Source: Thermobaculum sp. (lineage in GTDB: Bacteria > Chloroflexota > Chloroflexia > Thermobaculales > Thermobaculaceae). From it: a stretch of DNA of 38,428 nt. The stretch lies in NCBI GenBank assembly GCA_016782125.1, contig JADDPA010000095.1, positions 1-38,428 on the forward strand. Direction: 5' to 3'. The position numbers and the translations under genes are program-made. The notes beneath the pieces are model-generated. The model made no database searches. It was not told the DNA's origin and was given only the letters and a program-made list of their open reading frames with translations. Below, piece by piece: positions 2,777 through 31,011 of the stretch; the first letter of the stretch is position 1; each line of letters begins with the position of its first letter.

Positions 2777-3658
2777 ATGCCAATAAACCGACCGTTGCCG
2801 GAGGAAGCTCACGAGGACAAACGACCCGATCCGCCACGAGTCCCAGTCAACCAGTGGGAGTTGCACCCACTTCCCCTTCCCTCATCGCGGATGCCGTTTA
2901 TGCGCGCCGGCAGGCTGCTGAAGCGATGGCGGTACGTCTCTATCTGGAGTCGGGATATCTGGTTATGTGCCGCGAGCGTGCAAGTTGGTCCCGCACGGCA
3001 AGAGTTCTGGGCTGTGTGGGACCGGATACGACGACGGCTCTGGGAGCGTACGAGGCTATACCCACGTTGCGTACGCCTCTCGCGCGGCCGTGTTCTGGTT
3101 CGAGATGGCGAGATCCGCATCGACATCGTTCTCGAGGAGAACGAGGGCTTTCAGGTGGTCTCGCCCTCTGGGCCAGCGTATACATGGACCCGCAAACAAT
3201 GCGGCATACGGGCCCATGGTTCCGTGTGGGTCCAGAGCGAGATGCTGCCGGTGGAGGCCATAGCGCTGGTAGACGACAACGCCGGCTATCACCCTCGCCA
3301 CACCACCTGGTGGTGGTCTGGTGGGGACAGGATGGATACAAGGGATCGCGCAGTGGCCTGGAGCGTCATCGTCGGTCTGAACGACTCTCCGGTGAACAGC
3401 GAGCGCACGTTGTGGATCGAGGGGGTGCCGCACGAGTTGGGACCGGTGGAGTTCGCGTCCGACCTCTCCAGCGTAGAGCTCTCCGACGGAGGACGGCTGG
3501 TGTTCCACGAGGAAGCAGCGCGCGAGCGTCGAGAGAACCTGCTGCTCCTTCGCTCCTCGTATCGCCAGCCGTTCGGCTCCTACTCCGGCTCCCTGCCCAG
3601 GGGTACTACTCTCCGAGAGGCGTATGGCGTGATGGAGCACCACGAGGCGGTATGGTAG
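2777..3658 (+). CDS. DUF2804 family protein
   Basis: This is a soluble protein of about 293 residues that resembles the DUF2804 family, whose function is unknown. Supporting features are the N-terminal INRPLPEEAHEDKRPDPPRV, a tryptophan-rich central beta region, the segment WSVIVGLND followed by LWIEGVPHELGPVEF, and the closing YGVMEHHEAVW, which matches the GVxExHxAxW ending of that family. No signal peptide or membrane segment is visible. The frame is open further upstream to 2684, but the ATG at 2777 fits where family-like sequence begins; its ribosome site (GAGAGGG) is very close to the ATG, so the start is uncertain. It is transcribed away from thrS and is not obviously part of an operon. 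Confidence 0.75.
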   Translation: MPINRPLPEEAHEDKRPDPPRVPVNQWELHPLPLPSSRMPFMRAGRLLKRWRYVSIWSRDIWLCAASVQVGPARQEFWAVWDRIRRRLWERTRLYPRCVRLSRGRVLVRDGEIRIDIVLEENEGFQVVSPSGPAYTWTRKQCGIRAHGSVWVQSEMLPVEAIALVDDNAGYHPRHTTWWWSGGDRMDTRDRAVAWSVIVGLNDSPVNSERTLWIEGVPHELGPVEFASDLSSVELSDGGRLVFHEEAARERRENLLLLRSSYRQPFGSYSGSLPRGTTLREAYGVMEHHEAVW

Positions 3659-8633: not shown

Positions 8634-8653
8634 ACCGCCTCCCCCCTGGACCG

Positions 8654-8665
8654 CAGTGTACACTG
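8654..8665. promoter_or_regulatory. Palindrome CAGTGTACACTG upstream of the enolase-family gene
   Basis: A perfect 12-base palindrome lies 21 bases before the enolase-superfamily start codon. Its second half contains TACACT, which could itself be a weak -10 on the minus strand. It may be an operator; no regulator gene is adjacent. Confidence 0.35.
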
Positions 8666-8741
8666 ATCAGCCCGTAGAAATCAGCGTTGCGGGGCGGTCA
8701 ATGCTGTCGAGAGCATGGGAGCTTATCGCTGACTAGTTCGG

Positions 8742-8770
8742 TTGCCCCCGAAGTGGCCATCTGATACACT
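8742..8770 (+). promoter_or_regulatory. Promoter of the ribosomal-protection gene
   Basis: TTGCCC (8742-8747) and TACACT (8765-8770) are separated by 17 bases. Transcription would start near 8777, leaving a leader of about 90 bases that carries a small ORF. Confidence 0.6.
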
Positions 8771-8802
8771 CCCGGCATCAGCCAATCGCCAAGGAGAGTA
8801 CG

Positions 8803-8913
8803 ATGCGCAGAGCGTTCATAACCATCCAGACGGGAATAGCCACCTATCTTGAGGGAATGACGCTCCATGCGAACGCTAAACTTGGGGATCTTGGCGCATG
8901 TAGACGCCGGTAA
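8803..8913 (+). CDS. Possible leader peptide overlapping the OtrA-like gene
   Basis: A 36-codon ORF begins at ATG 8803, 5 to 6 bases after the best Shine-Dalgarno in the region (AAGGAGAG, 8791-8798). It begins MRRAFITIQTGIATYLEG and ends at TAA 8911-8913, so it overlaps the first 47 bases of the GTPase gene in another frame. The GTPase start at 8867 itself has only a distant GAGGG. The arrangement suggests translational coupling or antibiotic-sensed attenuation, as known for other ribosome-targeting resistance genes. The peptide resembles nothing I recognise, and expression is inference. Confidence 0.45.
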   Translation: MRRAFITIQTGIATYLEGMTLHANAKLGDLGACRRR

Positions 8914-10837
8914 GACGAGCCTGACCGAGCGGCTGCTCCACGCCGCCGGTGTCATCGACCAAATCGGCAGTGTCGATGACGGAAGTACACAGACCGATTC
9001 CTTGGCGCTGGAACGACAGCGCGGCATCACGATCAAGTCGGCGGTCGTGTCGTTCACCATCGACGACGTGACGGTCAACCTAATCGATACGCCCGGACAC
9101 CCGGACTTCATCGCCGAGGTGGAACGGGTGCTGAGCGTGCTCGACGGCGCCGTGCTGGTCATCTCCGCAGTGGAGGGCGTGCAGGCGCAGACCCGCGTGC
9201 TAATGCGGACGCTACAGCGGCTGCACAACCCGGTCCTCATCTTCGTGAACAAGATCGACCGTGGCGGCGCGGACGTGGAACGCGTGATCCGGGATATTGC
9301 CGATAGACTGACGCCGGCGATCATCCCTATGGGAACGTGCAGTGGCCTGGGTACCAGAGCCGCCACGTACACGCCGCACTGCGCAGAGGATGCTGCATTC
9401 ACTGCGAGGCTGGCGGAGCTTATCGCCGACCACGACGACGCGTTTCTGGCTGCGTACGTCGACGACGCAACGACCGTGTCGTACTGTCAACTCCGCCGTG
9501 CACTCGCGGTGCATACCAAGCGGGCGCTGGTGCGTCCGGTGTTCTGCGGCTCGGCACTCACGGGTGCGGGCGTGGATTCGCTGATCGCCGGCATCGCTGA
9601 GCTGCTACCCGCGAACGAAAGCGATGTCGATGGCCCCGTTTCGGGCACCGTGTTCAAGATCGAACGTGGTCCGGCCGGGGAGAAGATCGCGTACGTTCGT
9701 ATGTTCTCCGGGACGATCCGGACGCGAGATCGACTGCAATTCGGCCGAGGTAGCGAGGGCAAGGTCACCGCGATCAGCGTGTTCGACAACGGCTCAGCCG
9801 TCCGGCATGAGTCGGTCGCCGCAGGGCAGATCGGCAAGCTCTGGGGGCTTGGCGATATCCAGATCGGCGACACGCTAGGCATATCGCGTTCGACCTCGGA
9901 GCACCACTACTTCGCACCTCCGACCCTGGAATCGGTCGTCGTCCCCCGTCACCCTGGAGACAAGGGGAGGCTACACGGTGCGCTCGCACAGCTCGCCGAG
10001 CAGGACCCGCTGATCAACCTGCGGCAGGACGATACCCGGCAGGAGCTGTATGTCTCACTCTACGGCGAGGTCCAGACGGAGGTCATCCAGGCAACTCTGG
10101 CCGACGACTACGGTGTCGACGTGGCGTTCCGCGAGACAACGCTCATCTGTATCGAACGGCCGACCGCTTCGGGTGCAGGCGTGGAGATAATCGGCAGGGC
10201 GCCCAACCCATTTCTTGCAACCATCGGGCTGCGCGTCGAGCCCGCGCCGGCCAACACCGGCGTAGAACTTCGGCTGGAGGTTGACGTCGAGACCATTCCC
10301 CTCTTTGTGTACAAGGCAGTCGAGGACTTTCGAGCGGCGGTTGAGGACACCGTGCGAGACACGTTACGTGAGGGCCTCTACGGGTGGCAGGTCACCGACT
10401 GCACGGTCACTATGACGCATTGCGGCTATTCGTCACCGGGCACCACCGCGAGGGACTTCAGACTGCTGACGCCGCTGGTCCTGATGAGCGCGCTGAAGAA
10501 GGCCGGCACCGTGGTGTGCGAGCCGATCCACCGCTTCCACCTCGACATACCGACAGACACGTTCGGAGCGAGCGTACCTGCACTGGCACGACTGGGCGCG
10601 GTGCTGCAGACATCGGCAATGCGGGGTTCGTCGTATCTGCTGGAGGGGGAGATTCCAGCTGCTCGGGTGCATGAGCTGCAGCAACAGCTGCCCGCGCTGA
10701 CTCGCGGCGAGGGCGTGCTGGAATGCGCCTTTGCCCGCTACCAGCCCATAAGTGGCCCGTTCCCGACCCGGCCGTGCTCAGACCACAACCCGCTGAACCG
10801 CAAGGAATACCTGTTGCACGTCCTGCGGCGGGTATAG
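8867..10837 (+). CDS. Tetracycline-resistance ribosomal protection protein (OtrA/Tet(M)-like GTPase)
   Basis: A 656-residue translation GTPase related to EF-G that, in its characterised relatives, dislodges tetracycline from the ribosome. The start matches the family (LNLGILAHVDAGKTSLTERLL). G motifs are AHVDAGKT (residues 10-17), RGIT, DTPGH, NKID and GSAL. What sets it apart from EF-G is the domain IV loop near residue 520-545: CGYSSPGTTARDFR followed by LLTPLVLMSALKKAGT, which is the ribosomal-protection signature. Length fits OtrA (about 660) and Tet(M) (639). It is followed, after 197 bases, by two ABC half-exporters on the same strand, suggesting a resistance or self-protection cluster. 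Whether it confers tetracycline resistance cannot be told from sequence alone. Confidence 0.92.
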   Translation: MRTLNLGILAHVDAGKTSLTERLLHAAGVIDQIGSVDDGSTQTDSLALERQRGITIKSAVVSFTIDDVTVNLIDTPGHPDFIAEVERVLSVLDGAVLVISAVEGVQAQTRVLMRTLQRLHNPVLIFVNKIDRGGADVERVIRDIADRLTPAIIPMGTCSGLGTRAATYTPHCAEDAAFTARLAELIADHDDAFLAAYVDDATTVSYCQLRRALAVHTKRALVRPVFCGSALTGAGVDSLIAGIAELLPANESDVDGPVSGTVFKIERGPAGEKIAYVRMFSGTIRTRDRLQFGRGSEGKVTAISVFDNGSAVRHESVAAGQIGKLWGLGDIQIGDTLGISRSTSEHHYFAPPTLESVVVPRHPGDKGRLHGALAQLAEQDPLINLRQDDTRQELYVSLYGEVQTEVIQATLADDYGVDVAFRETTLICIERPTASGAGVEIIGRAPNPFLATIGLRVEPAPANTGVELRLEVDVETIPLFVYKAVEDFRAAVEDTVRDTLREGLYGWQVTDCTVTMTHCGYSSPGTTARDFRLLTPLVLMSALKKAGTVVCEPIHRFHLDIPTDTFGASVPALARLGAVLQTSAMRGSSYLLEGEIPAARVHELQQQLPALTRGEGVLECAFARYQPISGPFPTRPCSDHNPLNRKEYLLHVLRRV

Positions 10838-11034
10838 CGGCATGAGACAAGTTGCCTTCCCGATGACCACATCTCCCACGATGGCGCCGCTGAATGGATC
10901 GGTATCGTTGTTGTGCGAACTCGGCACACATTGGCCGCGCGTAGCGGAGATCGACGAGCATCATGACCTGGCTGACGGAGGAGCGGCGACGCCGTCCGCA
11001 CACTTTTATTTGTGCCACATCCAAGGAGCTTCTA

Positions 11035-12771
11035 TTGCTACCTAAGCGCGACCGTATCTTGCTCGCAACCTACCTGCGGCCGGAGTGGCCGCGCGTCGTC
11101 CTGCTCGGCCTGCTGCTGTTCGCCGGGATCGGCCTGCAGCTCGCTAACCCCCAGATCGTCCGGACGTTCATCGACCAGGCACGGGCCGGCGAGCCGTTCG
11201 AGCGGCTCGTCTGGATCGCGCTGCTCTTCATCGGTGTCGCACTCCTCACTCAAGGCATGACCATCGCCGAGACTTACGTTGCGGAGAACCTCGGCTGGCG
11301 CACCACCAACGCGTTGCGTGCCGACCTCGCGCGCCGCGTGCTCGCCCTCGACCTCTCGTTCCACGCGGAGCACGGCGTCGGTGAACTGATTGAGCGGATC
11401 GACGGCGACGTCTCGGCGATTGCCGACTTCTTCGCCCGCTTCGTCGTCCAAGTGCTCGGCAGCGCGCTCTTCCTGTTCGGCGTGCTCGTCCTGCTCTACC
11501 GTGAGGACTGGCGCGTCGGCGGGCTGCTGACGACATTCACCCTGGCCGCGCTTGCCTTCCTGACGTGGGGCGGTGGGTTCGTCGGCGTCCGCGCGCTGGC
11601 CGCCCGCCAGGCCAGCGCGGGGCTGATCGGCTACATCGAGGAGCGGCTCGGTGGTCTGCCCGACCTCAAGACGAGCGGCGCCGATGGCTACGCCATACAC
11701 CGTCTCCATGAGCGTCTGGCCGGGCGCTTCCACCGGATCAACGCTGCGGTGATGGCCGGTTCGATCCTGAACGCGGTTGTCGGTGTGCTCTTCGTGCTCG
11801 GCACGGGCGCGGCGTTCGGTTTGGGCACCGCGCTCTACGGCTCCGGTGCGATCACGCTCGGGACCATCTATCTCATCTTCCGCTACACCGGCATGTTGCG
11901 CGATCCGCTCGAGCGACTCACGCATGAGATGAACAGCTTCCAGCAAGCCACCGGCGGCATCGTCCGCGTACGCGAGCTGCTTGCGACCGATGCGCGTGTG
12001 AACGACGGCTCGGGCGCGACCTTCCCGGCTGGCGCCTTGTCGGTTGAGCTCGACGGCGTCTCGTTCGCCTACGAGACCGAGCCGGTGCTACACGGTGTCT
12101 CGTTCCGCGTCGAGCCTGGCAAGGTGCTCGGTCTGCTGGGCCGGACCGGATCGGGCAAGACGACGATCTCGCGACTACTGTTCCGACTGCACGACCCCAC
12201 CGAGGGGTCTGTCCGGCTTGGCGGCACGGACATCCGGGAGGCCCGCCTCGATGCGCTGCCAGAGCGGGTCGGCCTCGTTACGCAGGAGGTCCAGCTCTTC
12301 CAGGGGACGCTACGCGACAACGTCGCGCTGTTCGACCGGACCGTGTCCGACGCACGGCTGGTCGAGGTCTTCGCTGAGCTTGGGCTCGATGAGTGGCTGC
12401 GAGCGCTGCCGGCGGGGCTCGACACGCCGCTCGGCGCAGGTGGCCGGGGGCTGTCAGCCGGCGAGGCGCAACTCGTCGCGCTCACTCGAGTGCTCCTGAA
12501 AGACCCTGGCCTCGTCGTCCTCGACGAGGCGTCGTCCAGGCTTGACCCGCACACCGGGCGACTGCTCGAGCGTGCCGTGACACGCCTGCTCCACGGCCGC
12601 ACCGGCGTAGTCATCGCCCACCGGCTGGCGACAGTCGAACGGGCGGACCAAATCCTTATCCTCGAAGAGGGCCGCGTCGCTGAGTTCCGCCGGCGAGTCG
12701 ATCTGGCGCGCGACCCTGAATCCCGCTTCGCGCGGCTGCTCCGTGCTGGAATCGAGGAGGAGCTAGCTTGA
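11035..12771 (+). CDS. ABC exporter half-transporter, subunit 1 (TMD-NBD)
   Basis: A 579-residue fused membrane and ATPase protein of the multidrug/lipid exporter type. About six transmembrane segments fill the first 300 residues, followed by the nucleotide-binding domain: Walker A GRTGSGKT (369-376), Q-loop in LVTQEVQLF, signature LSAGE (473-477, off the LSGGQ consensus), Walker B LVVLDE with catalytic Glu 498, and H-loop IAHRL. I place the start at TTG 11035 because AAGGAG stands 6 bases before it; the ATG at 10963 has no ribosome site and adds 24 unlikely arginine-rich residues. The next gene overlaps its stop by 4 bases, so the two proteins probably form a heterodimer. Confidence 0.93.
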   Translation: MLPKRDRILLATYLRPEWPRVVLLGLLLFAGIGLQLANPQIVRTFIDQARAGEPFERLVWIALLFIGVALLTQGMTIAETYVAENLGWRTTNALRADLARRVLALDLSFHAEHGVGELIERIDGDVSAIADFFARFVVQVLGSALFLFGVLVLLYREDWRVGGLLTTFTLAALAFLTWGGGFVGVRALAARQASAGLIGYIEERLGGLPDLKTSGADGYAIHRLHERLAGRFHRINAAVMAGSILNAVVGVLFVLGTGAAFGLGTALYGSGAITLGTIYLIFRYTGMLRDPLERLTHEMNSFQQATGGIVRVRELLATDARVNDGSGATFPAGALSVELDGVSFAYETEPVLHGVSFRVEPGKVLGLLGRTGSGKTTISRLLFRLHDPTEGSVRLGGTDIREARLDALPERVGLVTQEVQLFQGTLRDNVALFDRTVSDARLVEVFAELGLDEWLRALPAGLDTPLGAGGRGLSAGEAQLVALTRVLLKDPGLVVLDEASSRLDPHTGRLLERAVTRLLHGRTGVVIAHRLATVERADQILILEEGRVAEFRRRVDLARDPESRFARLLRAGIEEELA

Positions 12772-14549
12772 GACCGATGATGGTGCTCCTCCGGCTGGTG
12801 CGCTTCTGCCCTGGTTACTTCGCGGCGAACACCTTCTTCGCCATCCTGGTGTACTTCCTCTTGGCGATCCCGCTGGGCCTTACGACGCGCGCCTTCTTCG
12901 ACGCCCTCTCCGGCGAGTCCGCCGGCCTGGTGGCCTGGAGCGCGATCGGCCTGCTTGTCGCCGTGCAGCTTGTCGAGGTCCTTGCCGGCCCGGCGCTCGG
13001 CAACCCCTGGAGTCCGTTGCAACAAAAAGGGCAGGTGCTCCTGCAGCGGAACCTGTTCGCCGGCCTACTGCGCGGCTACGGCCGCCACGGACTATCGGAA
13101 CCGGTCGGCGAGACAATCAGCCGCTTCCGCGACGATCCCGAGAGCATCACCGACACGCTGGATGCCCTCAGCGACCTGATTGGCAGATCGTTTTTCGCCA
13201 TCGGCGCGGCGATCGTGATGTGGCAGATTAACCCGACGATCACCGCGGCGCTGTTCGTCCCGCTACTGCTGAGCTCGTTCCTCACCGAGGCACTTGGCAA
13301 CACGATCATGGCTTACCGCGCCGCATCGCACGCGGCGACCGGCCGGGTAACCGGTTTCATCGGCGAGTTGGTCGGCGCGCAGCTCGCCGTCAAGATCGCA
13401 GGCGCCACGCGACCGGCCGTCGCCAGGCTGACCAAGCTAGGGGAGTTGCGCCGCAAAGCGGCGGTGCGCGACAGCGTCTTTGAAGAAACGCTCAACTCGT
13501 TCAACCTCAACGTGGTCCACGTCGGGACGGGCATCGTGCTGCTGCTCGGTGCCCGGGGGATCAGCGAGGGCACGTTCACAGTCGGCGACCTCGCCCTGTT
13601 CATCGTCTACCTGGATCAGCTCACCTGGTACCCGGCCGAGGTGGGACGTCTCATCAGCGATCTGAAGCGGATCGAGGTGTCGTTCGGCCGGATGCGCGCA
13701 ATCGTGCCCGGCGAGCCGCCAGCGGCGCTGCTCGCGCCGGTGCCCGTCTACCTGCGGGGCACGCCGCCCGAACCGCCTCCCCCACCGCCGCGCGAGCGGC
13801 TCGAGCGCCTCGAGGTGCTCCATCTCACCCACGCTCACCCGGGCAACACCCGTGGGATCATCGACGTTTCGTTCGCCTTGGAGCGCGGCTCCTTCACCGT
13901 GATCACCGGCCGCATCGGCGCCGGCAAGTCCACGCTCCTGCACGTGTTGCTCGGCCTACTACCGCGCGACGCCGGCGAAATCCGCTGGAACGGCCGGGCA
14001 GTTGACGATCCGGCGAGCTCCTTTGTCCCGCCGCGCAGCGCCTACACGCCGCAGGTGCCGCGGCTCTTCAGCGAGACGCTACGGGAGAACCTGCTGCTCG
14101 GGCGTCCCGAGGACCCGCGCGCGCTCGATGCGGCGGTCCACGCGGCGGTCCTGGAGCCGGACCTGGCGGCGCTCCGGGGTGGGCTGGACACGCTGATCGG
14201 GCCGCGCGGCGTCAAGCTCTCGGGCGGCCAGGTCCAGCGATCCGCTGCAGCGCGGATGTTTGTGCGTGACGCTGAGTTGCTGGTCTTCGACGACCTCTCC
14301 TCTGCGCTCGACACGGAAACGGAGGCCGAGTTGTGGAGGCGGCTCTTCGCGCGCGGCACTGAAACGACCTGCCTGGTCGTCTCGCACCGCCCGGTAGCGC
14401 TGCGTCGGGCCGACCAGGTGCTGCTCATGGACACCGGCCGCCTCGTCGCACGGGGTTCGCTGGATGAGCTACTTGCAAGCTCCGCGGAGATGCAGCGACT
14501 GTGGCGGGACGAGCAGCGTCCGCCCGAGGTGACTACGCGCGAACCTTGA
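12768..14549 (+). CDS. ABC exporter half-transporter, subunit 2 (TMD-NBD)
   Basis: A 593-residue partner of the preceding ABC protein. The membrane domain covers the first 310 residues; a proline-rich linker (PPEPPPPPPRE, about 335-345) leads to the ATPase domain with Walker A GRIGAGKS (381-388), a canonical signature LSGGQ (484-488) and Walker B LLVFDD, where Asp 509 replaces the usual catalytic Glu. The switch His is in VVSHRP. Translation probably starts at TTG 12768, which overlaps the TGA of subunit 1 (TTGA) and has GGAGGAG just upstream; an ATG at 12777 is the alternative. The motif pattern complements subunit 1, supporting an asymmetric heterodimeric exporter. Confidence 0.93.
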   Translation: MRPMMVLLRLVRFCPGYFAANTFFAILVYFLLAIPLGLTTRAFFDALSGESAGLVAWSAIGLLVAVQLVEVLAGPALGNPWSPLQQKGQVLLQRNLFAGLLRGYGRHGLSEPVGETISRFRDDPESITDTLDALSDLIGRSFFAIGAAIVMWQINPTITAALFVPLLLSSFLTEALGNTIMAYRAASHAATGRVTGFIGELVGAQLAVKIAGATRPAVARLTKLGELRRKAAVRDSVFEETLNSFNLNVVHVGTGIVLLLGARGISEGTFTVGDLALFIVYLDQLTWYPAEVGRLISDLKRIEVSFGRMRAIVPGEPPAALLAPVPVYLRGTPPEPPPPPPRERLERLEVLHLTHAHPGNTRGIIDVSFALERGSFTVITGRIGAGKSTLLHVLLGLLPRDAGEIRWNGRAVDDPASSFVPPRSAYTPQVPRLFSETLRENLLLGRPEDPRALDAAVHAAVLEPDLAALRGGLDTLIGPRGVKLSGGQVQRSAAARMFVRDAELLVFDDLSSALDTETEAELWRRLFARGTETTCLVVSHRPVALRRADQVLLMDTGRLVARGSLDELLASSAEMQRLWRDEQRPPEVTTREP

Positions 14550-28568: not shown

Positions 28569-31011
28569 TTACTCCGGTGTCCAGACCCAGTCCCGAATCT
28601 CCGGCGGATCCTCGAAGTGCTCGCGCGAGTATGCTACGGCCCGCTGAATGAGCGCGCGGCATTCGTCCATAAGCGCCGACGCTCGTTCGTATCGATGCGA
28701 CACGCGCCGTAGCGCCGCTATGCACAGGTCATAGCGGCTCATTCCGTTGAGCACAACCATATCGAATGGGGTCGTCGTGGTGCCCTGCTCCTTGAAGCCC
28801 CGCACGTGGAACCGGTGGGCGTTCACCCGGCCGTGCACAATCTCGTGGATGGCGCGCTGGTAGCCATGAAAGGCAAAGATCACCGGCTTGTCCGCGGTAA
28901 AGAGTTCGACGAAACGCGTCTCGTCCATACCGTGCGGGTGCGACTCCGGCACGAACAGGCTCATCAGGTCGACCACATTCACTACGCGCACCGTCAGCTC
29001 GGGCATATGACGGCGCAGCCACCACGCCGCGGCAACGGTCTCCAGCGTCGCGATGTCACCCGCCGCCGCCAGCACGACATCCGGCTCCTTCCCATCCCCG
29101 TTGCCGGCCCAATGCCAGATGGAAGCGCCCGCGGCGCTGTGCGCAATCGCCGCGTCCATATCGAGCCACTGCAGTTGTGGCTGCTTATCGATCACGATGA
29201 GGTTGACGTAGTTGCGGCTGCGGAGGCAGTGATCCGCGACCGACAGCAGGCAGTTGGCATCGGGGGGTAGATAAATTCGCGCCACCGTGCCCCGCTTCGA
29301 GAGCATGACGTCGATGAGCCCCGGACCCTGGTGGCTGAAGCCATTGTGATCGTTCCGTCAGCACGTAGACGTTAGCAGGATGTTCAGCGACGGGATTGGG
29401 TCCCGCCACGGCAGGTTAACCGCCTCCTCCAGCCACTTCGCGTGCTGCACGGTCATCGACGCGGAGACCATCGCGAATGCCTCATACGTCACATACAGGC
29501 CGTGACGCCCGGTCAGGATGTAGCCTTCCAGCCAGCCCTCGCACAGATGCTCACTGAGCACCTCCATCACCCGTCCATCGGGCGAAAGGTGCTCGTCTCC
29601 GGGGATTCGCCTGCCGACAAAGCACCGATTCTCCACCTCGAAGACGGGCCCCAGCCGGTTCGAGTTTGCCTCATCCGGACTGAAGATCCGGAAGTTGCCC
29701 TGTGCGGCGTTGCGGGTAAAGACGTCCCGTAACATCTCCGCAAGCCGGCGGGTTGATTCGGCACGCACGACGGCTGGCTGCTCCACCGGAAGCGCGTACT
29801 CCCGGAAGTCTGGCAGGTCCAGATCGACCGCGAGCGTGCCGCCGTTGGCGTACGGGTTGGCGCCCATGCGCCGGTCGCCTTTGGGCGAAAGCGCCGCGAG
29901 CGAAGGGGCCAACCTGCCCGTCTCATCGAACACCGTTTCGGGCTCGTACCCGCGCAACCAGGACTCGAGCTGTTTGAGCTGGTCTGGATCCGTCCGCACA
30001 TCCGAGAGCGGTACCTGGTGGGCGCGAAACGTACCTTCGACTGGAACGCCATGAACCGACTGCGGTCCGGTCCAGCCCTTCGGCGTACGCAGAACGATCG
30101 CTGGCCACCGGACGCGGTCCGAGACGCCGTTCTCTCTCGCATCTCGCTGAATGTCCCGGATCCGCTCGTAGCACGTATCCAGCGTCGCGGCGAACACCTG
30201 GTGCATCAGTGCAGGGTCGTCGCCCTCGACGAAGTGAACATCGTAGCCATGTCCCTCAAGCATGGCGCGCACATCGGCGTCGCTGGTGCGGCCGAGCACG
30301 GTCGGATTCGCGATCTTGTACCCATTGAGATGCAGGATCGGTAACACCGCCCCGTCGCGTGCCGGATTGAGGAAGTGTACGCTCTTCCAGGACCCCTCCA
30401 ACGGCCCCGTCTCCGCTTCGCCATCACCAACGACCGCCGCGACGATCAGGTCCGGATTATCAAACGCCGCGCCGAATGCATGCGTGAGCACGTAGCTGAG
30501 CTCGCCACCCTCATGGATGGACCCAGGCGTCGGGACGCTGACGTGACTCGGTACGCCACCGGGAGTCGAGAACCGACGAAACAGCAGCCGCATGCCCGCG
30601 AAGTCCTCTGAGACATCCGGATACACCTCCGAGTACGTGACCTCAAGGTAGACAGTCGCGAGGATTGCCGGTCCGCCGTGGCCCGGCCCGGCCAGATAGA
30701 TGACCTGCGCATCGCGCTCCGTGATGAGCCGGTTCAAGTGGACGTAGATGAACCTAAGGCCCGGCGATGTTTCCCAGTGACCGAGCAGGCGCGGCTTGAT
30801 GTGCTCAACTTGGAGCGGCTCGCGCAGCAGCGGGTTGTCCTGCAGATAGATCTGCCCGATCGTCAGGTAGTTGGCCGCCTGCCAGTATCGCTGCATCCGC
30901 TCAAGAAGCTCCCCCCGACAGCGGCCCGTGGACTGCGGGCGTTCCTACTGGCTGGGGCCTTAATCCGTTCGTGGCGACCGCGCTGGAAATGGCCGGGTCA
31001 AACTGGTACAA
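28569..31011 (-). pseudogene. xfp: Phosphoketolase, disrupted by a frameshift and an in-frame TGA
   Basis: Phosphoketolase splits xylulose 5-phosphate and/or fructose 6-phosphate into acetyl phosphate and an aldose phosphate with thiamine diphosphate. The full coding run is about 814 codons, the usual length. It probably starts at TTG 31011, with AAAGGAG 6 bases upstream and inside the end of ackA. Reading is broken twice. A frameshift at a G6 run (forward C6 at 30911-30916) separates [20 protein letters not shown] from [20 protein letters not shown] at 29360-29358 replaces the conserved Trp in the motif TSTCWRNDHNGFSHQ. Intact family motifs such as [11 protein letters not shown] and [12 protein letters not shown] lie in the long middle part. 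Outside the two lesions the sequence looks fully preserved, so loss is recent or the lesions are sequencing errors. Confidence 0.87.

Follow-up and report, generated by a model that had tools for sequence, protein, structure and literature searches.

A candidate translational attenuator with a leader ORF crossing the start of an OtrA-like ribosome-protection gene in Thermobaculum sp., and related elements upstream of other resistance genes

The analysed stretch of DNA, below called the window, comprises 38,428 nucleotides and is one contig of the 2.96-Mb draft genome of Thermobaculum sp. It contains a gene for a putative tetracycline resistance protein, a GTPase with EF-G-type domains. The two best NCBIfam matches of the protein are NF000120 (Otr(A), 735.6 bits) and NF012153 (the tetracycline ribosome-protection family, 728.1 bits). 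As both scores are below the curated cut-offs (900 and 775, respectively), the protein is named OtrA-like. Two ABC half-exporters (10963-14549) come straight after the GTPase on the same strand. In the 3-kb flanks of the 80 loci considered below, the gene order otrA-ABC1-ABC2 was also observed in L010, L011, L043 and L044, and the order ABC1-ABC2-otrA in L034. The features of the region are as follows.

8742-8747, plus strand: -35-like element TTGCCC, from the alignment with relatives
8765-8770, plus strand: -10-like element TACACT, with a spacer of 17 in the window
8781-8793, plus strand: 5' side (5'UTR and leader Shine-Dalgarno box) of a tentative, weakly supported outer stem S1, with its partner at 8881-8895 in the GTPase coding region
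8791-8796, plus strand: leader ribosome-binding site AAGGAG, 6 nt from the leader ATG; the aligned columns -75 to -72 are purine-rich
8803-8913, plus strand: leader ORF of 36 codons, MRRAFITIQTGIATYLEGMTLHANAKLGDLGACRRR, from the ORF list and the loci of relatives
8804-8823, plus strand: 5' arm of the hairpin S2+S3, leader codons 1-7, from swap tests, pair counts and folding
8851-8855, plus strand: GTPase ribosome-binding site GAGGG, 11 nt upstream of the GTPase start
8853-8871, plus strand: 3' arm of the hairpin S2+S3, over the GTPase Shine-Dalgarno box and start codon, from swap tests and pair counts
8867-10837, plus strand: OtrA-like ribosome-protection GTPase, 656 amino acids
8911-8913, plus strand: leader stop codon TAA, formed from the P-loop codons Gly15 (GGT) and Lys16 (AAG) of the GTPase
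10963-12771, plus strand: ABC exporter ABC1, whose homologues in the family of Nonomuraea have the same kind of leader of their own
12768-14549, plus strand: ABC exporter ABC2, the second half-transporter beside ABC1

The preliminary description of this region had reported an ORF of 36 codons that runs into the GTPase gene out of frame. Such an ORF is present: it starts with ATG at 8803, ends with the stop codon at 8913, is in another frame than the GTPase, and overlaps it by 47 nt, counted from the first GTPase nucleotide (ATG 8867). The start at 8742 given there does not belong to the leader. Positions 8742-8852 hold a mechanical ORF in another frame that begins with TTG, and its length, also 36 codons, is probably the source of that coordinate; the TTG falls inside the -35-like element. 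The ribosome-binding site of the GTPase had been called poor. The spacing is indeed wide, but a usable site does exist. Its columns in the aligned relatives have A at -15 in 55 of 62 sequences, G at -14 in 60 and G at -13 in all 62, and the site extends into the 3' arm of the hairpin. At gathering scores, no Rfam family matched in the window, and no Pfam or NCBIfam family matched any of the three leader peptides tried, so annotation pipelines may miss both the leader and its targets.

Genome contigs were scanned with the GTPase, and the best 80 of 565 confirmed relatives (62-77% identical) were taken. L041, whose contig begins within the gene and has no upstream DNA, was left out of all counts; the 80 loci are 79 relatives and the window. 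By record titles, the hosts among these best relatives include Actinomycetota, Chloroflexota and two alphaproteobacterial MAGs. A leader-frame ORF that starts with ATG or GTG after a Shine-Dalgarno-like stretch (by a permissive filter, with GAG accepted) is open across the GTPase start in 73 of the 80 loci. The start is at exactly -64 in 62 loci. In a scan without a frame filter, the leaders starting at -58, -61, -67, -70, -73 and -88 proved to be in the same frame, with the single exception of L070, and no leader was observed in L013, L015, L034, L071 and L077. Two loci outside the 73 retain the leader start: in L067 the leader stops after 14 codons, and in L070 it is shifted by one base. The leader peptides of L009 and L021 are divergent. 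Absence of the leader from relatives was one of the two outcomes that, according to the preliminary description, would refute its proposal. The leader is instead kept in these 73 loci, which supports the proposal, and the ORF and its conservation are confirmed as real and beyond chance.

Upstream of the leader, a TTG-led -35 box followed at 16-19 bp by a -10-like hexamer was found in 55 of the 62 aligned regions, versus 1 of 61 control stretches further upstream. A generic sigma-70 scan of 8640-8960 listed no promoter, so the candidate promoter of the window is taken from the comparison with relatives. By the rule that transcripts start 7-8 bp downstream of the -10 box (PMC7157823, section 10), transcription would start at about 8777 with a 5'UTR of about 25 nt. 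The bases before the -35 box of the 55 aligned promoters have the majority pattern G-W-A-A-A-Y-N-N-N (G in 27 of 55), that is, a GAAAWY-like motif 3 bp upstream of the box. This fits the WblC/WhiB7 consensus, described as GAAAWY 3 bp upstream of a TKGMNN -35 box that is 16-19 bp from the -10 box (PMC7157823). The type of gene in the aligned relatives is also that of this regulon, as tetM of S. coelicolor is activated by WblC (PMC7157823). One may thus suppose ordinary transcriptional induction of the WhiB7 type, with the leader and the hairpin described below merely setting a low basal level. However, in the window the motif is degenerate (CTAGTT) and the genome (91.9% complete) has no match to the WhiB family, yet the leader and the hairpin are intact, and this explanation looks decidedly improbable. 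PMC7157823 describes transcription, and its main text contains no word beginning with "leader". The actinobacterial copies may be under two layers of control, and in the window the leader is perhaps the only one.

A leader upstream of a tetracycline ribosome-protection gene is known for tet(M) of Tn916, where the listed mechanism is transcription attenuation (PMC5418344). By analogy with this related gene, the ribosome on the leader might choose between a terminator and an antiterminator. The scan of 8640-8960 produced zero terminator-like sites, including none between the leader and the gene, and as the leader runs into the gene, there is little room for a terminator. We consider such a mechanism highly improbable for the window.

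Folding of the leader region had been proposed in the preliminary description. The window RNA at 8778-8900 folds with z = -3.88, and the arm-swap and pair-count tests likewise favour a hairpin in which leader codons 1-7 are paired with the region of the GTPase ribosome-binding site, an architecture that the proposed mechanism requires. It consists of two stems. S2 joins leader codons 1-4 to the region around the GTPase start; S3 is formed by UCAUGUCC, from codons 5-7, and GGACAUGA, which adjoins the GTPase Shine-Dalgarno box, and in the window it has two mismatches. The 62 sequences of the main clade share common descent; near-identical rows were dropped, and the arm-swap test was applied to the 51 remaining non-redundant loci. 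Swapped arms reached the native mean in 0 of 5000 permutations for S2, for S3 and for S2+S3. For the outer stem S1 the value was 13/5000, but GTPase codons 4-16 show no reduced synonymous variation, and this stem is retained as a weak feature. A candidate apical stem, S4, was rejected as unsupported (684/5000). One of five control pairings, (-66..-52) x (+10..+25), passed the swap test too (14/5000), and therefore small swap values are no proof by themselves. The conclusion about the hairpin comes from S2 and S3 taken jointly, from compensatory changes, and from the distant clade considered below.

In alignment A1, 78.8% of cells are paired, as compared to 24-51% in slid pairings (maximum 51.2%) and 77.3% in shuffled ones; in alignment A2 (100 distinct rows) the respective values are 80.6%, 27-46% (maximum 46.1%) and 78.6%. 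Much of the pairing in these counts stems from conserved columns, as the shuffled value for A1 demonstrates. The covariation is 0.142 versus 0.121 for shuffled pairings in A1, and 0.164 versus 0.134 in A2 (0/500 in both cases). Changes on both sides of a pair are no more common than in one-column slides (27 versus 31 and 38 in A1; 53 versus 38 and 54 in A2, the latter at +1), and thus this measure is of no help. Particular loci do contain compensatory pairs: CAUAUCC:GGAUAUG in L024, CGUGUCC:GGACACG in L122 and L134, and CACGUCC:GGAUGUG in L113 and L140. RNAalifold produced no consensus pairs on A1, so we relied on explicit pair counts and swap tests; on A2, with softer penalties and ribosum scoring, it produced the S2+S3 hairpin plus a small apical stem. 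An opposite-strand row, L107, is included in A2 (101 rows), its pair counts and model R2, and was removed for the softer RNAalifold run and the counts of codon 2.

In the absence of a ribosome, the Shine-Dalgarno box is less accessible than in shuffled sequences in 54 of the 62 loci, and the start codon in only 38. In masked-ribosome folding, the median unpaired value increases from 0.40 to 0.50 for the Shine-Dalgarno box and from 0.20 to 0.34 for the start codon. This predicted gain is modest, and in the folding model it tells against a simple static picture.

A more distant clade was found within the class of the window, where the GTPase matched in 21 of 150 genomes, the window's own among them. 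L219, in which the gene start is missing, was excluded from the 19 other loci; at least four of the remaining 18 repeat loci of the best-80 set. Overlapping leaders are present in 16 of the 18, L206 and L212 being without one, and in ten of these 16 the GTPase is only 45-49% identical to the query. Several loci are apparently the same in different searches (by identical upstream DNA, L203, L205, L206 and L207, for example, appear to repeat L010, L021, L015 and L072 of the best-80 set, respectively), so that counts from different searches are not independent. Plasmid records matching the GTPase numbered 704, and six were examined among the matches listed. Two of them, L142 and L143 (plasmid, 60% identity), have the main-clade leader, with model E-values of 6.5e-11 and 1.2e-14. 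In L144 (Embleya), L146 (Rhizobium) and L147 (Streptantibioticus), with 48-52% identity, the overlapping leader has a different sequence. A leader with a Shine-Dalgarno box was looked for in L145, a plasmid record of R. rhizogenes, and none was seen.

The ten distant Chloroflexota loci together with L144, L146 and L147 contain hairpins at the same place with unrelated stem sequences, such as UCGUUGAAGAG:CUCUUCAACGA, CUGUCGAGAAC:GUUCUCGACAG and CACAUCGAGAA:UUCUCGAUGUG. In these 13 loci the mean energy is -20.0 kcal/mol for native arms and -15.3 kcal/mol for swapped ones, with 0 of 20000 permutations reaching the native value. The native partner ranks best of 13 in six loci, ninth in L216 and last in L147. 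Conservation of the place while both arms have changed in sequence is, at the level of sequence comparison, the strongest evidence for the hairpin.

The first residues of the leader peptide are conserved in the main clade as MRxAFMSxQ. Codon 2 encodes arginine in 81 of 91 main-clade leaders of the otrA type, with four synonymous codons in use (CGC, CGA, CGG, CGT), and in seven of nine leaders of other types, three of them with AGG; of codons 3-15 in 62 leaders, 3.2% encode arginine. The exceptions are cysteine or serine in 5 of 62 leaders, asparagine in both MFS leaders, serine in L133, and the divergent L009 and L021. The FMS stretch is accounted for by the hairpin arm and is missing from the distant clade, whereas all 13 distant leaders start with Met-Arg. 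As Met-Arg is the sole peptide feature common to most leaders of both clades, sensing probably takes place while the ribosome is on the start codon or on codon 2, and not via a nascent arrest peptide. Codon 2 might also be retained because its CG pairs partially with the target start codon. The conserved N-terminus might alternatively reflect a small functional protein encoded by the leader. We find this scarcely conceivable, given that the second half of the leader is set by the overlapped gene and is different before ABC and MFS genes, and that little beyond Met-Arg is common to the distant clade.

The leader stop codon in the window is made of the third base of the Gly15 codon and the first two bases of the Lys16 codon. 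Gly15 is encoded by GGT in 58 of the 62 leader-bearing genes, while 7.2 +- 2.5 would be expected from the glycine codon usage of each gene; in the five loci without a leader it is GGA, GGA, GGG, GGA and GGC. The GGC codon is that of L077, from an actinobacterial MAG, which at the level of sequence appears to be a natural deletion of the whole leader. At 2950-3000 of this locus the promoter abuts the GTPase start, and the mRNA would be nearly leaderless. GGT without a leader occurs in L212 and L145, and of the ten distant Chloroflexota leaders four combine GGT with a stop at +47; the remaining six end at +38, +62 or +77. Thus only the main clade holds the position of the stop tightly.

Overlapping ORFs often point to translational coupling, and a ribosome on the leader must melt the hairpin in passing. 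The leader could then be an activator with no role in drug sensing, its translation opening the hairpin and feeding the GTPase by termination and reinitiation. However, 66 of the 73 leaders stop at +47 (six at +38 and one at +53), and 47 nt downstream of the target start is far for backward reinitiation. Further, in L067 (the same locus as L097) the leader ends before the target Shine-Dalgarno box, yet the hairpin and the gene are kept. Coupling seems unlikely on these grounds.

Covariance models of the leader element, R1 and R2, were used in searches of further genomes; those covering more than 40 genomes can lose weak matches. A set of 100 source loci was compiled, with near-duplicates and loci without a match left out. 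The element was found in 3 of 301 genomes of the window's phylum, 13 of 396 genomes of the phylum of G301 (a Streptomyces), 55 of 200 genomes of the family of G301, 32 of 120 genomes of the family of G315 (a Nonomuraea), and 2 of 299 genomes of the phylum of G305 (a Phenylobacterium MAG). Matches on the opposite strand were not counted, as the hairpin is nearly palindromic. A weak match in the window's own genome (E 0.71) and the locus L101 (E 0.2, no leader seen) were discarded.

In the family of Nonomuraea, 25 of the 35 places are upstream of otrA-like genes, eight upstream of ABC exporters and two upstream of MFS transporters; one genome, G315, carries leaders of all three kinds. The eight ABC exporters are 39-44% identical to ABC1 of the window, and of the two MFS genes one matches MFS_1 and the other is 78% identical to it. 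In all ten loci of these two types, the distance from the leader ATG to an ATG, GTG or TTG that is in frame with the target is 61-64 nt, and this codon is not in the leader frame. As the element keeps the same geometry upstream of ABC and MFS genes, the leader and the hairpin are not by-products of the GTPase coding sequence, and one kind of leader has been shared among three unrelated types of resistance genes. In L122 (1576-1700) the ABC gene under the leader retains an otrA-like DAGKT stretch at its 5' end, which suggests capture of the leader from otrA, perhaps together with the first codons of the latter. In the family of G301, 55 leader places, repeats on the opposite strand left out, have otrA-like genes downstream. 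In L117 (from the Nonomuraea-family set) and L149 the otrA-like match after the leader, from 1576 on, is short (40 and 25 residues), which may reflect broken genes or errors in the sequence. At one of the 55 places, in L193 (reverse complement, about 120-530), a leader-like ORF lies upstream of a GTPase weakly similar to the query (37% over 162 residues), possibly another translation factor under the same control.

Taken together, we consider it likely that the element is a translational attenuator, with a sensor ORF that crosses the start of the gene it controls. Without the drug, ribosomes would traverse the leader, passing the GTPase Shine-Dalgarno box and start codon in another frame, and would terminate at +47. 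In their wake, leader codons 1-7 would pair with the region of the GTPase Shine-Dalgarno box and start codon, and the gene would be shut. A drug, for which tetracycline is the obvious candidate, would hold a ribosome at the first codons of the leader. The stalled ribosome would cover the 5' arm (the arm of S2 and the start of S3), so that the hairpin could not form and the GTPase start would open. The comparisons establish the leader ORF and its conservation, the co-evolving hairpin, the geometry and the reuse; the stalling, the induction and the identity of the drug we infer. The attenuator offers a concrete, testable answer to how a family of environmental genes for ribosome protection might be induced by the very drug against which they act.

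A wider scheme, to which we give slightly less than even credence, is that of a portable start-codon-stall cassette. It would comprise the promoter, the 5'UTR of about 25 nt, a leader mostly starting with Met-Arg, the co-evolving hairpin, and a spacing of about 61-64 nt between the two starts. The cassette would be ancestral to the OtrA family, and would have crossed phyla with OtrA. ABC and MFS exporters would have acquired it as well, and a single drug signal would thereby elicit both ribosome protection and efflux. The out-of-frame run through the target start and the arginine codon in the A-site would then be working parts: passing ribosomes would shut the target, and a ribosome blocked at the A-site would open it.

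A sensory leader that masks a ribosome-binding site is already known from ermC, tetQ and toiL. As in ermC/ermCL, the leader ORF has its own Shine-Dalgarno box and the leader region masks the target ribosome-binding site (PMC13410324, PMC5418344); the release of this site by a drug-stalled ribosome, expected for the ermC type, would be another similarity (PMC13410324, PMC5418344). Of the features of the ermC type, a leader with its own Shine-Dalgarno box is found in the 73 of 80 loci and the target Shine-Dalgarno box and start are paired, but the leader does not end before the target site: it crosses the Shine-Dalgarno box and the start codon and usually stops within the P-loop. Also unlike ermC, there is no family-wide arrest peptide, and the targets are ribosome-protection GTPase, ABC and MFS genes. 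By analogy of mechanism, the nearest precedent is toiL-topAI of E. coli, where the upstream ORF pairs with the target Shine-Dalgarno box, and tetracycline stalls ribosomes at the start of this ORF and opens the target (PMC12121999). The likeness is one of mechanism, as the target there is a toxin-antitoxin operon (PMC12121999), whereas here the leader overlaps its target and belongs to a family found on resistance genes across phyla. For tetQ of the Bacteroides element CTnDOT, also a gene for tetracycline ribosome protection, control at the level of translation via a very short leader is described (PMC5418344, PMC12121999). It differs from the window system in the GTPase branch, host phylum and leader; the available parts of these two sources mention neither overlap with the target nor reuse on other genes.

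We found no description of an otrA leader in the open-access literature, most subscription papers, including the older ones on otrA, being outside this search. New, as far as the open-access literature shows, are a leader crossing the start of its target, a hairpin that co-evolves across the whole family, and the occurrence of the element on three types of genes.

Elsewhere in the window, on the minus strand at 28569-30896, a frame resembling a single gene, which we take to be that of a phosphoketolase, appears to be split into two ORFs at about 29.31-29.36 kb, possibly by a sequencing error.
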